Of a DNA stretch of 46,917 bases, positions 21,606 to 29,554 are shown one piece after another. The position numbers and the translations under genes are program-made. Below the pieces are notes generated by a model, which saw only the letters and a program-made list of their open reading frames with translations, had not been told where the DNA came from and did not search any database. Within the stretch, counting starts at the first letter, position 1; each line of letters begins with the position of its first letter. Source of the DNA: Alistipes sp. (GTDB lineage Bacteria; Bacteroidota; Bacteroidia; Bacteroidales; Rikenellaceae); assembly GCA_017504485.1 (NCBI GenBank), contig JAFVRC010000030.1, positions 1-46,917 of the forward strand, written 5' to 3'.

Positions 21606-22574
21606 TTACTTTACGCGCAGAACCTTGCCTATCTGTAATACGGCAGATGGCTTGATTCCGTTCAGTCGGCATATGGCTGCCACGGTGGTGTGGTTCCTCG
21701 CAGCGATTTTACCCAGGTAGTCGCCACTGCGCACCTTGTAGTAGCGTCGCTCGGCCGATAGCGCAGCCTCCTTCTTGTCGGCATCGGCCAACAGTTTCTC
21801 GCCATTCCAATCCTGCTCGTACTTCGAGTAGATGCTGAAATAGGAGCGTTTCAGAAGTAGGTAGTCGCGACGCAGTTCGCCCGTGCGAAAGTTGATAATG
21901 CGCTCGGGGTCAAACGATTGTCCCATGTATCGGCACTCGAAGTGCAGGTGTGGGCCCGTCGAGCGGCCCGAGTTGCCACCAAGCGCAATAGGCTGACCGG
22001 CTACTACCCTGTCGCCCGCCTCGACCAATCGCTTGGAGAGGTGCCCGTGGTAGGTTTCGAGACCATTGTCGTGGCGTATGACGACGAGCGTTCCGTAGCC
22101 CGTTTCAGTCGCTTTCGAGAAGCGCACGCGACCATCGAATGCCGAGCAGATGGTGTCGCCCACCTTTATGGCTATATCTATGCCGTTGTGATTGACGCGG
22201 CGGCGTAGTCCGTAGCGCGAGGTTATACGGCCGATATGCGGATAGCGGTACGAGCGCAATGAATCGACCAGCTTGATAGGTGTAGCTGCAGGGATTGACG
22301 AGAGTGCCACTTCGCGGTAGGGCGAAATCTTCTCGGTGTCCCAATATGCGGTATAGACCGTCGAGTCGGGTTCGATTTCGGCCGTGCGGACGTAACGCCA
22401 CGAATTGTCGTTGAAGAGCACAATCGAGAGGCTCTTGTCGGCCGTTGGCAGCGTATCGACCACAATCGCCGACTGCAACTTCTCAATTGGTTTAATTGCT
22501 AATGAATCAAGCGGATTGGCAGTTGCAACCGCCACGCCAAATAGTGCAAATATGGATAATCGTATTCGTTTCAT
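21606..22574 (-). CDS. Secreted M23 peptidase with C-terminal LysM domain
   Basis: Zinc endopeptidase of the LytM/lysostaphin type, expected to cut peptidoglycan cross-links or remodel the wall. The signal peptide is about 1-19. The M23 domain (about 115-230) has zinc ligands H129 and D133 in NHNGIDI and H211 in GPHLHFE, with H178 in YHGHLS, so it appears catalytically complete. A LysM peptidoglycan-binding module covers about 277-322 (KVRSGDYLGKIAARN...NGI). The length is 322. Its ATG overlaps the DUF3109 stop by 4 bp (ATGA), implying translational coupling; D-Ala ligase is two genes upstream, so the cluster has a cell-wall theme. Confidence 0.92.
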   Translation of the reverse strand: MKRIRLSIFALFGVAVATANPLDSLAIKPIEKLQSAIVVDTLPTADKSLSIVLFNDNSWRYVRTAEIEPDSTVYTAYWDTEKISPYREVALSSIPAATPIKLVDSLRSYRYPHIGRITSRYGLRRRVNHNGIDIAIKVGDTICSAFDGRVRFSKATETGYGTLVVIRHDNGLETYHGHLSKRLVEAGDRVVAGQPIALGGNSGRSTGPHLHFECRYMGQSFDPERIINFRTGELRRDYLLLKRSYFSIYSKYEQDWNGEKLLADADKKEAALSAERRYYKVRSGDYLGKIAARNHTTVAAICRLNGIKPSAVLQIGKVLRVK

Positions 22575-23152
22575 TGATTTTCTGTTTTTAGTAGCTGCTC
22601 GGCGGCCTCTAACGCCTCGTAAAACCCCTCACCCCACTTGCGAATGATAGGCTCGCGGAGGCTCTTGTACACGGGTATGCCGAGCTTGTAGCCATTCTCG
22701 CACGCCGACTTGCAGATGCACCAACGATGGTAATTGAGTCCCTCGCCGCCGCTGCTGAATTTAATGACGCGAATTGGATAGAGGTGGCACGATATAGGCT
22801 TTTGGAACGAGCATTTGCCCTCGTGAAAAGCCTTGTCGATGGCACACAATGCCACTCCTTTATCGTCGTAGCAGGTAAAGGCGCACTCGCCACCATTGAT
22901 AAGCGGTGTGGTGTAGTCACCCTCCACATCAACTACCATAAAGCCCTGACGCTCAATGGCAGCAATGCCTTCCGCAGTCATATAGGGCTTGTAATTTTCG
23001 TACTCCTCTTCGAGTATATCGACCTCTTCGATTTCGAGCGGAGCCCCCGCATCGCCCTCGATGCAGCACGCCCCCTTGCACTGCGCGAGATCGCACGCAA
23101 ACTTCTCGGTCAAGAGGTCAGTACTAACTATTTTGCCTTCGATTTCAATCAT
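22571..23152 (-). CDS. DUF3109 family cysteine-rich protein
   Basis: Conserved Bacteroidetes protein of unknown function. It is cysteine-rich: CDLAQCKGACC near residues 20-31, and CAFTC, CAID, CSF, CHLYPIR, WCICKSAC and later cysteines, a pattern suggesting a bound metal or Fe-S cluster similar to the YkgJ-type zinc/iron-binding proteins. No signal peptide. The length of 193 is normal. It ends with TGA within the ATGA overlap with the M23 gene, the only other TGA stop I find among the genes here. The role cannot be named. Confidence 0.85.
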   Translation of the reverse strand: MIEIEGKIVSTDLLTEKFACDLAQCKGACCIEGDAGAPLEIEEVDILEEEYENYKPYMTAEGIAAIERQGFMVVDVEGDYTTPLINGGECAFTCYDDKGVALCAIDKAFHEGKCSFQKPISCHLYPIRVIKFSSGGEGLNYHRWCICKSACENGYKLGIPVYKSLREPIIRKWGEGFYEALEAAEQLLKTENQ

Positions 23153-26336: not shown

Positions 26337-27170
26337 CTAAAAGCTCTGGAACGACGACCAATTGGTGTTGCTCTCGGCCGCACGCTCGATGTTGTCGGGC
26401 AGATTGGCGAAGAAGTCAAAGCCTGTCCAAGTCTCCACTTGGTCCACCGATACGGCGTAGTTCGTGTAGCTGTCCGAGTAGGTCTTGTGGTCGAACCAAA
26501 AACCTATGGTCGAGGCCGATGTTACCGTGCCGTTGCTGTCGGTCGTGACCTTTAGCGCAATCTTGTAAAAGTAGTTCGGTACGGGCACCTGCTTCGTGTC
26601 GTCCTGCGCTGTGGTGTAGCTCACCGACTTCGACTCGCCCACCTTCGAGAAGGCTACGCCCGTGACGATATATACCCTCTCGCTCGCCGCTACGTTTTGC
26701 ATCGCCTGCTCCAACGAGTTCCAAATGCCACCGTTGAAGCTGTTCTGTATCTGTGGCACCGAGTTGGTGACATAGAATGTCTGCAACTGCATATTCTTGA
26801 TGCCGTCGCGCGATGCATTGGGTATGAGGTGACCTCGCGAATAGCTGTCGTTGTACGACGAGTCGCAGAGGTTTACCTGATACTGTGTTCCGAGCAGCGG
26901 GTTGTACGACCACGAGCTAGGACGCGAATACGAGCCCATATGCTTCGCCTCGAGCGGATAGGCTACCCACATCGAGGTATAGGTCGATGTGTCGTAGTAG
27001 GCCGTATAGTTGTGCTCGCCATCGGCCTCCACCTTCAGCTCTACGGCATTCGGGTAGAGTCCACCCTTGTCCTCGCCCGGTAACTCGAGCCACGTCTCGG
27101 TTGGAACACCTCCCGTTATACCTCCGCCCGTCGTCGAGCCGCCGGTATCCTCTCCCGGGGTAGGGTCCAC
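26337..27170 (-). CDS. DNA/RNA non-specific endonuclease, lacking its own signal; probably the C-terminal part of the upstream lipoprotein
   Basis: NUC1-type (beta-beta-alpha metal) endonuclease that degrades DNA and RNA. The active-site motif is SRGH (111-114, counted from the GTG), the Bacteroidetes variant of DRGH, followed by LIPNASR, the metal-site TNSVPQ (N136) and NGGIWNSLE. The domain looks complete and ends in TAG. Coordinates use a GTG at 27170, but there is no start with a spaced ribosome site, no signal peptide, and the first 25 residues are a low-complexity Gly/Thr/Pro linker. Upstream the same frame is open back to the TGA that ends the lipoprotein gene. I therefore infer that this is the C-terminal catalytic module of a surface lipoprotein, separated by one in-frame TGA. 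Independent translation from the GTG is the weaker alternative. Confidence 0.8.
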   Translation of the reverse strand: MDPTPGEDTGGSTTGGGITGGVPTETWLELPGEDKGGLYPNAVELKVEADGEHNYTAYYDTSTYTSMWVAYPLEAKHMGSYSRPSSWSYNPLLGTQYQVNLCDSSYNDSYSRGHLIPNASRDGIKNMQLQTFYVTNSVPQIQNSFNGGIWNSLEQAMQNVAASERVYIVTGVAFSKVGESKSVSYTTAQDDTKQVPVPNYFYKIALKVTTDSNGTVTSASTIGFWFDHKTYSDSYTNYAVSVDQVETWTGFDFFANLPDNIERAAESNTNWSSFQSF

Positions 27171-27172
27171 GG

Positions 27173-27215
27173 CAGGAGGGGTTGTTCCCCCTCCTGTTCC
27201 GTTACCCGTAGATCA
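27173..27215 (-). other. In-frame TGA followed by a 9-bp GC-rich hairpin, between lipoprotein and nuclease
   Basis: The TGA is at 27215-27213. After 16 nt comes a perfect stem CAGGAGGGG / GAACAA loop / CCCCTCCTG (27196-27173). No T tract follows, so it is not an intrinsic terminator. The stem is coded by Gly and Pro codons of the linker, which may explain it, but position and strength would also suit a readthrough-stimulating structure. Confidence 0.6.
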
Positions 27216-29402
27216 TTGAAGCTTGTAGATAACGATTTCGTTCTGGCCGCTCGAATAGCACGAGAACAAACTGCTCTGCGAGTTGTGACGCAGCCAATTT
27301 TTAGTATTTGTACCCTGTGCCTTAACTGTTGCTACACCAGCCGATGTAATTGTTACAGTCCAAGAGCTATTGGCCGAAAGAGAAGTCTCTGTTTTCAAAT
27401 AGTTCTTGCTTGACGAAGCTGCATAAATATAACCCGCACCTGTGTAGAACGCAAATGTGCCTGCATTTTTACCCGCCTTCAACGTAAAGATCTGCACCTT
27501 TGAACTTGGAGTTGCAAGAGTATTGCCACTCTTGGTGATTGCTTCCTGACCACGGTTATTGCTGTTCTGTGTTGTGCTCATTGCAACAGCGTCATTCTTT
27601 GCTGCAATAATAACCTGGTCGCCAGCAGCAAGCGTCGAAGCGTCTGTCACGAGAGTCCAAACCTTTGCTCCGGCTGCGGTCTGATTAACCGTTACACTCT
27701 TGGTAATATCGCCATAAGTAACGTTGATTACGGCCGTGCGAGCCTCGGATGTTTCATTCTTGGTTACAACGAACGAAATCTGACCGTCTACGCTCAAATC
27801 GAAGTCCTCGATCCACGACGCAGCAGTAGTAGCCTCTACGCTTACACCGCTAACCGGATTCTTTAATGTGTACTCAATAGTGAATGTACCACCATCTGGC
27901 TCTGCATCTATTGTATCTTTACCCAATGTTAATACTGGCGCAAGAACTGCATTTGGATCGTACAACTTGTAGAGCGACATATTACTTTCAGCCTGTGTTG
28001 CAGATGTGTATGAACGCCAATCCTGATTGTTGTACACTGCGAGGTGTGTCGAAGCGTTCTTGTCCATGAGATAGAAGCAATTTGCAGTAGCACCCTTCTT
28101 GAACGACCAAGTGTCATTTGTTGTGCCAATACGTAAACCGTCACCCGATTTAGTCGAATACAAATAGTTCTTTGTGTTATTTATAGGTGAGAGAGCCATT
28201 GCGGTGTTGTCGCCAACAAACGACCACTTACACTCCTCTGGAACGGCACAAGAGATAGAGCCGCTTGCAATAGTGATAGCCTTGCTTGCATAAGTGGTAA
28301 CAGTCTGCTTGCTTGAACCAGAGTTGTTGAGAAGAACATAGTTACCACAAATTACAACATAAGTACCAGCGGTTATATCGTCAAGCGAAGTGACGAGCTC
28401 ATACAATTCTGCCTCTACAGCCTCAATTGCGGTTGTGTAGTCAACCTTTACGTTCTTGAGGTTTCCCGATGCGAATACAACATCGCTCGACAGCGTAAGA
28501 TCCTTCTCGTGTGCACCCAAACCGGTGTTAGAGATAGCCGAAACCTTTACGGTGAGGTCGCTGCCAGCCTTTGCGGTGAATGGCTTAACGGCTGCGTAGA
28601 ACTTGGCCGATGCGTTTGGAGCAATCTCTGCGCCACCCGTAACCGAAAGGATAGCGGTATTCGACGTGTAACCTGCGCCCGACGAGGTAAACTTCATAGC
28701 CTCAGGCTTTGCGAAGTTGATGTAGAACGAGCCAACGATGTCCTCCTCGGCGGTGAACTGAATCTCCGTAACGGTGATAGCCTCGGTGAGCTTGTTTACA
28801 ACCTCAAACTCAATAAGGCTCGAGATGTGCTTAAACTCAAGCGTAGGCTGCTGACCGCCAGGAACAGCTACTGCGTAGCCGGCCATTGGGTAGTTAGTAC
28901 CTGCGATGTGAGCCATCGAGTTGTTGCCATTCTGAACCTGAGCCGAGCCGGCCTTGCTTCCGATGTTGGTGTAACCCGAGTTGTCGTTCGCAGGAGTCTT
29001 GATGTACGACGAGTATGGGTAGAATGCATACCAATCGTACTCCTCCTCAAGATCCAGAGTGCCATAGAGCGAGCCCAAGAAATAGCCCTCGGCAGCATTC
29101 TCGCATACGAATGGGCTGCCAGCGTTGTTCAGGTAAGGTGTGTCGTTTACGTAGTCGGCAGTCTCGCCAACGGCGTGGAATAGGTTAATCTCATCCTTTG
29201 CCACCCACGAAGTGTTCATGTCGTTGTTAACGGTACGGGTGATTGGAGCGTAGATTGCGAAGTCGCCCTTCGCCTCGATTGCAGGAGTTACCTCCTCGTA
29301 CTTTGCACAATTTGTGAGGTTGAAAGCCATTGCTATCAAACCCAACGAGAGTAAAAATCTTTTCATCTTTTTCATCTTTTTCATCTTTTTAGGGTTTGAC
29401 AT
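27213..29402 (-). CDS. Fimbrillin-like/BACON surface lipoprotein, ends at in-frame TGA before the nuclease module
   Basis: Modular surface protein of 729 residues to the TGA. From the N-terminus: lysine-rich start and lipoprotein signal with lipidated C32 (NLTNC), then A-K-Y-E-E, acidic residues near the Cys that resemble Bacteroidetes surface-export signals; a fimbrillin/Mfa-like domain (about 33-331, with the ITRTV and W..KDEINLF motifs typical of that group); a first all-beta module (332-487); a BACON domain (488-579, with ASWI and TVNQT); and a second all-beta module (580-729) resembling the first (LVT.....AG..V, ending YKL). The start at 29402 is chosen because it overlaps the stop of the 50-residue ORF (TAATG); ATGs at 29384, 29375 and 29366 are also possible. 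BACON and the beta modules suggest carbohydrate or mucin binding. The three middle domains are AT-richer than the flanks. Confidence 0.82.
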   Translation of the reverse strand: MSNPKKMKKMKKMKRFLLSLGLIAMAFNLTNCAKYEEVTPAIEAKGDFAIYAPITRTVNNDMNTSWVAKDEINLFHAVGETADYVNDTPYLNNAGSPFVCENAAEGYFLGSLYGTLDLEEEYDWYAFYPYSSYIKTPANDNSGYTNIGSKAGSAQVQNGNNSMAHIAGTNYPMAGYAVAVPGGQQPTLEFKHISSLIEFEVVNKLTEAITVTEIQFTAEEDIVGSFYINFAKPEAMKFTSSGAGYTSNTAILSVTGGAEIAPNASAKFYAAVKPFTAKAGSDLTVKVSAISNTGLGAHEKDLTLSSDVVFASGNLKNVKVDYTTAIEAVEAELYELVTSLDDITAGTYVVICGNYVLLNNSGSSKQTVTTYASKAITIASGSISCAVPEECKWSFVGDNTAMALSPINNTKNYLYSTKSGDGLRIGTTNDTWSFKKGATANCFYLMDKNASTHLAVYNNQDWRSYTSATQAESNMSLYKLYDPNAVLAPVLTLGKDTIDAEPDGGTFTIEYTLKNPVSGVSVEATTAASWIEDFDLSVDGQISFVVTKNETSEARTAVINVTYGDITKSVTVNQTAAGAKVWTLVTDASTLAAGDQVIIAAKNDAVAMSTTQNSNNRGQEAITKSGNTLATPSSKVQIFTLKAGKNAGTFAFYTGAGYIYAASSSKNYLKTETSLSANSSWTVTITSAGVATVKAQGTNTKNWLRHNSQSSLFSCYSSGQNEIVIYKLQ
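29364..29390 (-). repeat. Three tandem 9-bp repeats at the lipoprotein start
   Basis: Three perfect copies of AAAAAGATG on the minus strand, each carrying a possible start codon and coding MKKMKKMK. Slippage by whole units would change the basic n-region by three residues without breaking the frame. Confidence 0.7.
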
Positions 29403-29554
29403 TAAAATTCGAGCGTTCCCTCCTCGCGTTCCCACGGGTCGATTGTCACGCCTGGCATACTTGCCTCGAAGCCCGCCTCGACCTTAATCGAACAGAGCTG
29501 CATCTCGGGAGCAGCATACGCGCCACCAAGATTTTTGAGATTGTTTTTTTTCAT
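29402..29554 (-). CDS. 50-residue small protein upstream of the lipoprotein
   Basis: A short frame beginning MKKNNLKNLG and ending in WEREEGTLEF, with the middle part SIKVEAGFEASMPG. The stop overlaps the lipoprotein start as TAATG, a classic coupling arrangement, and a perfect promoter box lies about 50 bp upstream. No hydrophobic signal or membrane segment is visible. Short peptides with a VE.GF..S core and an acidic, Trp-containing tail recur ahead of fimbrillin-type lipoprotein genes in Bacteroidales, from my general knowledge of such loci; their function is not established. I see three possible roles: a coupled leader that sets lipoprotein expression, a small partner protein, or a substrate for secretion. 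Confidence 0.65.
   Translation of the reverse strand: MKKNNLKNLGGAYAAPEMQLCSIKVEAGFEASMPGVTIDPWEREEGTLEF

Follow-up and report, generated by a model that had tools for sequence, protein, structure and literature searches.

The window analysed here is a stretch of 46,917 nucleotides (nt) from an Alistipes sp. genome (contig JAFVRC010000030.1 of assembly GCA_017504485.1; 1.92 Mb in 48 contigs, rated 82% complete). On its minus strand, a 729-codon lipoprotein frame (27216-29402) runs from an ATG at 29402 to a TGA at 27215-27213, and the same frame then stays open for 291 further codons, encoding a nuclease, up to a TAG at 26339-26337 (1,022 codons in total, including both stops). The gene is interpreted, with a probability of roughly 0.85, as a programmed UGA-readthrough gene in which an RNA hairpin behind the TGA would stimulate readthrough and place the nuclease on a minority of the lipoprotein. 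This reading, drawn from sequence comparison, is based on a conserved TGA, a covarying hairpin, purifying selection on the extension, the lack of a conserved start codon or recognisable signal behind the TGA and, in the genomes searched, the absence of selenocysteine machinery above the cut-offs together with the presence of RF2. A first-pass annotation of the window had described lipoprotein and nuclease as a single frame broken by the TGA only, which was borne out by translation, and had listed a recent nonsense mutation, an assembly error, phase-variable loss and programmed readthrough as options. The conserved TGA and the covarying hairpin favour the last of these, whereas the first two are excluded and the third is unlikely. 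The hairpin, which provides the strongest evidence, was absent from that annotation.

To follow the TGA across loci, 151 genomes of the genus were searched with the nuclease alone, and 60 of the best 63 matches besides that of the window were traced from the middle of the nuclease match upstream to the first stop (G068:C44, G120:C124 and G107:C18 were skipped, as were most lower matches). Eleven named loci, loci from the family and loci from a search with a hairpin model were added. Removal of the duplicates L104, L106 and L172 and of the nuclease-free stretches L149, L153 and L154 left 85 distinct loci. In 35 of these, including the window, the nuclease frame opens directly behind an in-frame stop, preceded by 449-1041 open codons. 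The first-pass annotation had suggested comparing the locus in relatives and had taken a conserved TGA to indicate recoding, and this is the result obtained: the stop between lipoprotein and nuclease is TGA in 29/29 split loci that the nuclease search alone had recovered, and in 35/35 when the six loci contributed by the hairpin model (L145, L146, L147, L148, L150 and L152), which itself contains the TGA, are counted. The linker behind the TGA, corresponding in the window to the first 40 codons (27093-27212) and rich in Gly, Thr and Pro, is Gly-rich in all of these 35 loci except L112. In the other 50 loci, the nuclease frame extends further upstream, or else it follows a frame that is short or unrelated. 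Most of these loci carry a hydrophobic N-terminal segment of their own, according to a partial check by regular expression and by eye (L089 and L165 were ambiguous). A nuclease with its own signal, which had been named as an observation that would speak against a single recoded frame, was found only in family members that lack the TGA layout. The hairpin is likewise missing from the 34 of these 50 loci that were searched with the model, the sole match up to E 10 reaching 11.3 bits (E 3.6).

Together with a second search described below, 39 split loci were collected (29 of hairpin class A, nine of class B, and L112). They span at least two genera of the family and contain no near copies, having no more than 57 30-mers in common over 750 bases; the named relatives are metagenome-assembled genomes that carry the labels Alistipes, Rikenellaceae, Bacteroidales or Bacteroidia, and several of these originate from ruminants. 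The idea that a fresh nonsense mutation or an assembly error in one strain has newly killed the gene would fit an open frame interrupted by nothing but one in-frame TGA, but it is refuted by the conservation of the codon across species and is also opposed by purifying selection on the nuclease in 11 pairs of loci, which leaves it with practically no weight. Recurrence by chance was rejected as well, given the identical TGA at the identical place in other species. The proposed derivation of the TGA from a GGA glycine codon proved dispensable, as no changed glycine codon is needed. Two further loci were recorded in passing. In L089 (genome G118), an in-frame TAG interrupts the nuclease-bearing frame within a stretch that resembles a BACON repeat by eye; the locus gave no match to the hairpin model and may be a broken gene, an error or another case. 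A nuclease relative in genome G113 (contig C32, 31669-32502) contains one TGA and one TAA within the matched stretch.

In the window, the hairpin (27163-27207, minus strand) begins 5 nt past the TGA and comprises 17 base pairs, with the arms GGGT/ACCC, ACGG/CCGT and CAGGAGGGG/CCCCTCCTG and a 6-nt loop. It belongs to the main class, class A, in which the stem starts about 5 nt past the TGA. Across 19 aligned sequences, 94.4% of the 323 cells of the structure are paired, as opposed to 48-58% when the partners are slid by 1 to 3 columns as a control. Doubly changed cells number 28, compared with a mean of 8.3 in shuffled alignments, none of which (0/500) reaches this value; pairs changed on both sides (5 versus 4.4) and further pair types (10 versus 11.8) are not in excess. 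Inclusion of four more divergent members lowered the paired fraction to 90.1% and left 28 doubly changed cells versus 7.9 in shuffles. RNAalifold, run unaided, predicted 14 of the 17 pairs. Because some of the covarying pairs require amino-acid changes on both arms (for instance Asn with Val versus Ser with Thr), it is the RNA, and not the peptide alone, that appears to be conserved.

The folding energy of the first 45 nt past the TGA lay within the lowest 1.5% of 200 random windows from the same gene at 20/20 loci tested. As a stricter control, each linker peptide was recoded synonymously 500 times with the codon use of its own gene. The native sequence ranked at or below the 25th of 500 at 25 of the 29 class A loci (mean z -3.02), and 60 control windows within the nuclease gave a mean z of -0.65, with 7/60 under -2. 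An earlier recoding run on 28 loci of both classes, using 18 codons each, had given a mean z of -2.75. The explanation of the hairpin as a mere by-product of Gly and Pro codons was rejected on this basis for 25/29 class A and 5/9 class B loci, though not for the rest.

A covariance model built from the 19 class A sequences was run on 180 genomes of the genus and returned 27 matches at E<=0.001, one per genome, every one of which (27/27) lies at a TGA-nuclease junction. Nineteen of these are the training sequences (one, G549, corresponding to L105), and the eight outside the training set include four new junctions. All ten class A loci that had not been used for training match the model. Ten weaker matches were obtained (E 0.0035 to 0.07); among the six examined, L150 and L152 are split loci and L149, L151, L153 and L154 are not. 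A search of Rfam gave five matches up to E 10, all below the gathering scores.

A different hairpin, TCCGGCGGNGGCGCCGG, stands six bases past the TGA in L076, L108, L109, L111 and L164, the last of which belongs to a sister genus, and defines class B. A pattern consisting of TGA, six bases and the class B motif with one mismatch, containing no nuclease sequence, matched seven times in 268 genomes of the family (twice for the reversed control). Two of these matches were known (L076 and L164), four were new in-frame TGA-nuclease junctions (L322-L325), and one, in G045, was discarded as a chance hit in an unrelated gene. By eye, L322-L324 start with lipoprotein signals, and L325 is cut. The exact class B pattern was not matched in 393 genomes of the order. 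In L324 (genome G638), the nuclease frame ends after 197 codons, probably reflecting a damaged copy or an assembly fault.

A lipoprotein signal was recognised, by regular expression and by eye, at the start of 31/31 split loci whose upstream frame is uncut, four of the 35 (L038, L050, L072 and L105) being truncated by the end of the stretch. In the window, a signal peptide with the lipobox Cys (NLTNC; 29307-29402) was assigned by eye according to the lipobox rule. It is followed by a fimbrillin-like region (Mfa_like_1; 28413-29240), a BACON domain (PF13004; 27681-27836) and a C-terminal part. The Mfa_like_1 match is weak and slightly under the Pfam cut-off (25.8 bits versus 27; E 1.3e-5), and the same family was matched at E<=0.1 in 2 of 12 members (best E 7e-7). 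Among ten upstream proteins scanned for domains, BACON was detected in six, Big in one and Fn3-like domains in one, with two giving no match. Behind the TGA, the DNA/RNA non-specific endonuclease domain (PF01223; 26394-27017) was matched at E 1.4e-39 (Endonuclease_NS, 136.5 bits versus a cut-off of 23), and its closest solved relative is the nuclease 2o3b (E 2.1e-16). The SRGH motif (His codon at 26831-26829) is present, and an alignment of eight sequences shows RGH, Asn and Glu, the residues expected of this nuclease family, to be invariant.

The ratio of nonsynonymous to synonymous substitution rates (dN/dS) behind the TGA was 0.07-0.26 in 11/11 chosen pairs of loci. Before the TGA it was 0.24-0.45 in the ten computable pairs (synonymous sites were saturated in L051/L062), and it was higher before than behind the TGA in nine of these ten, L074/L075 being the exception. 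In the pairs chosen, the nuclease extension is under purifying selection in the frame of the lipoprotein.

The layout also resembles two adjacent genes, and translation might terminate at the TGA and re-initiate behind it, yielding a separate nuclease; the hairpin would then serve in initiation, RNA processing or attenuation. In the window, L038, L049 and L050, a GTG does occur 14 codons past the TGA. However, the loci share no conserved start codon in this region, and 9/39 have none within 45 codons. Since the region behind the TGA contains no recognisable signal, such a product would remain intracellular. Moreover, at 10/10 loci first found via the hairpin, where the frame was not a criterion, the TGA is in frame with the nuclease and closes a long open frame, so re-initiation is considered improbable. 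Another possibility is phase variation, whereby part of the population would carry a recombined form with the nuclease attached to a TGA-free lipoprotein end. The sequence just before the TGA differs between species, as do the domains, such that the upstream part seems to be often exchanged. Against this stand the covariation of the hairpin as RNA and the finding that no traced locus has the same linker and hairpin without the TGA, and we regard the explanation as very unlikely.

A short reading frame of 50 codons (29402-29554, minus strand) lies directly ahead of the lipoprotein gene and ends in …KVEAGFEASMPGVTIDPWEREEGTLEF; its TAA stop shares bases with the start codon of the lipoprotein (TAATG). 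A comparable E-x-GF peptide was detected by regular expression ahead of 25/39 split loci (a 26th match, in L038, looks spurious) and of some fused loci.

The means by which the TGA might be decoded were assessed from the translation machinery of these genomes. Bacterial selenoprotein genes show the same succession of UGA and stem-loop, their selenocysteine insertion sequence (SECIS) being named in PMC7764779, and weak matches to the selenocysteine transfer RNA (tRNA-Sec) were obtained in all 151 genomes, the best scoring 46.4 bits against a cut-off of 47. No tRNA-Sec exceeded the cut-off in these 151 genomes (5 of 14 control genomes pass), nor did SelB in 180 genomes (2 of 14 controls pass, namely E. 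coli and M. jannaschii), and the two best weak tRNA-Sec matches are tRNA-Ser, as is that of G137. Selenocysteine insertion directed by the hairpin as a SECIS is consequently given next to no credence. RF2 was found above its cut-off in 40/41 genomes, including that of the window. TGA is rare as a stop in the window, as had been claimed: in the chosen list of 34 genes, it ends only the lipoprotein frame and one other gene (22571-23152, in an ATGA overlap), with TAG or TAA closing the remaining 32. TGA also terminates nine of the 34 nuclease frames that are complete at the split loci. These endings indicate that TGA works as a stop here, although it is the exception among the listed genes of the window. 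In G137, a 98% complete genome that carries the element, all 39 tRNA matches were read; they include one tRNA-Trp, with the anticodon CCA, and no UCA anticodon. A genetic code with TGA as a sense codon was rejected because of RF2, the nuclease frames ending in TGA and, in G137, the missing UCA anticodon.

Given the absence of tRNA-Sec and SelB matches over the cut-offs, the presence of RF2 and the sole tRNA-Trp (CCA) of G137 in a set without UCA, the decoder of the TGA is likely to be tRNA-Trp. Misreading of UGA by tRNA-Trp is described for E. coli, most readily before A (PMC5289835). The base following the TGA at the 35 split loci is A (15 loci), U (13), G (5) or C (2). The sole tRNA-Trp gene of G137 (L188, 1498-1571, minus strand) appears by eye to have a G-U pair at the top of the anticodon stem; unpaired top pairs of this stem are reported to favour UGA misreading (PMC13092985). 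In-frame hopping over the stop, instead of decoding of the TGA, was weighed as a further mechanism. According to PMC5009743, in-frame hops could underlie some cases of supposed natural readthrough, with no occurrence stated to be known. The codon before the TGA varies, with ten different codons at the 35 loci, and thus provides no shared pair of take-off and landing codons, which makes hopping most improbable.

Several observations weigh against hairpin-stimulated readthrough. Most of the loci come from metagenome-assembled or incomplete genomes, and the main element reaches E<=0.001 in only 27/180 genomes of the genus; in 393 genomes of the order, the covariance model found nothing at this threshold except the match of the window itself. 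L112 possesses neither a recognised hairpin nor the Gly-rich linker. The class A loci L073, L077, L086 and L147, four of the nine class B loci and L112 failed to beat synonymous recoding at 25 of 500, Gly-rich codons followed by Pro-rich ones favour a hairpin by themselves, and the stem is shorter and shifted in L074, L075 and L077. The regular expression for signals flagged 6/35 extensions behind the TGA (L045, L074, L085, L086, L087 and L148), although inspection by eye placed these stretches inside folded domains, and they were rejected as signals. A U following the UGA, as found at 13/35 loci, is reported to lower readthrough (PMC5289835); since it misfits a leaky context, readthrough in those loci would have to depend on the hairpin. 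Finally, when the TGA layout is mapped onto the tree of 85 nucleases, at least nine changes are required, six of them forced by well-supported branches.

L147, L148, L150 and L152 are TGA loci that fall outside the main nuclease clade (57 members), but their linker is of the same kind and the model scores them at 25 to 42 bits. We read this as recombination of the junction with different nucleases; repeated loss may also account for it, and the terminal branches in that region are long. There is perhaps an even chance that the TGA, hairpin and flexible linker constitute a UGA-recoding cassette of the bacterial chromosome, unlinked to selenocysteine, which has become joined to various lipoprotein ends and nuclease subfamilies and sets, and maybe regulates, the nuclease-bearing share. 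A phage origin was also considered and rejected. A nuclease scan of viral contigs yielded 101 pattern stretches, but no relative was encoded by any of them, and a loose hairpin pattern gave 103, of which 80 were searched with the model, the best E being 0.097.

Under the proposed readthrough mechanism, most ribosomes would stop at the TGA and release the fimbrillin-like, BACON-containing lipoprotein. With the stop codon in the A site, a hairpin 5 nt past it would stand near the entry of the messenger RNA (mRNA) into the ribosome. A minority of ribosomes could be paused there, or termination hindered, and a near-cognate tRNA, most likely tRNA-Trp (CCA), would then be accepted at the TGA, such that translation continues via the linker into the nuclease. 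One mRNA and one N-terminus would thereby yield two exported lipoproteins, bare and nuclease-tipped, in a fixed ratio. The most likely role would be a low dosage of nuclease on the cell envelope, used for feeding on or clearing extracellular DNA or RNA.

Judged by analogy, the closest parallel in outcome is the minor coat protein A1 of phage Qbeta, in which UGA readthrough likewise adds a C-terminal domain to a minority of the coat protein. Qbeta is an RNA phage and its coat gene, unlike the gene in the window, is not a bacterial chromosomal gene; to our knowledge, no covarying 3' hairpin has been described for it. Trp is misincorporated at this UGA about once in 15 (PMC8067240). The PF01223 nucleases of known structure (2o3b and 1zm8) share the catalytic domain, which here is joined behind a lipoprotein through a stop codon. 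Stop codons with a stimulatory 3' RNA structure occur in gag-pol of Moloney murine leukaemia virus and in some plant viruses (PMC5009743). These differ in involving eukaryotic ribosomes, pseudoknots or other structures and polymerase products, and the retroviral stop is UAG. Bacterial selenoprotein genes similarly combine a UGA with a SECIS hairpin behind it, but depend on the machinery for which no match over the cut-offs was obtained here. The CS3 pilus genes of E. coli, which likewise concern a bacterial surface structure, contain an amber codon that is reportedly read through. There, however, the stop is UAG, and we know of no conserved hairpin. Beyond selenocysteine, no case of readthrough with a 3' structure in a bacterial chromosomal gene was seen among the results listed by the literature searches, which covered few subscription papers. 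If the proposed reading is correct, gene-finding programs divide a single functional gene into two, a lipoprotein and an orphan nuclease. Structured 3' readthrough signals are known from viruses; the element described here is a bacterial chromosomal candidate that has been kept across dozens of species, and it would offer a natural, alignable set for studying how bacterial ribosomes are directed past a stop.

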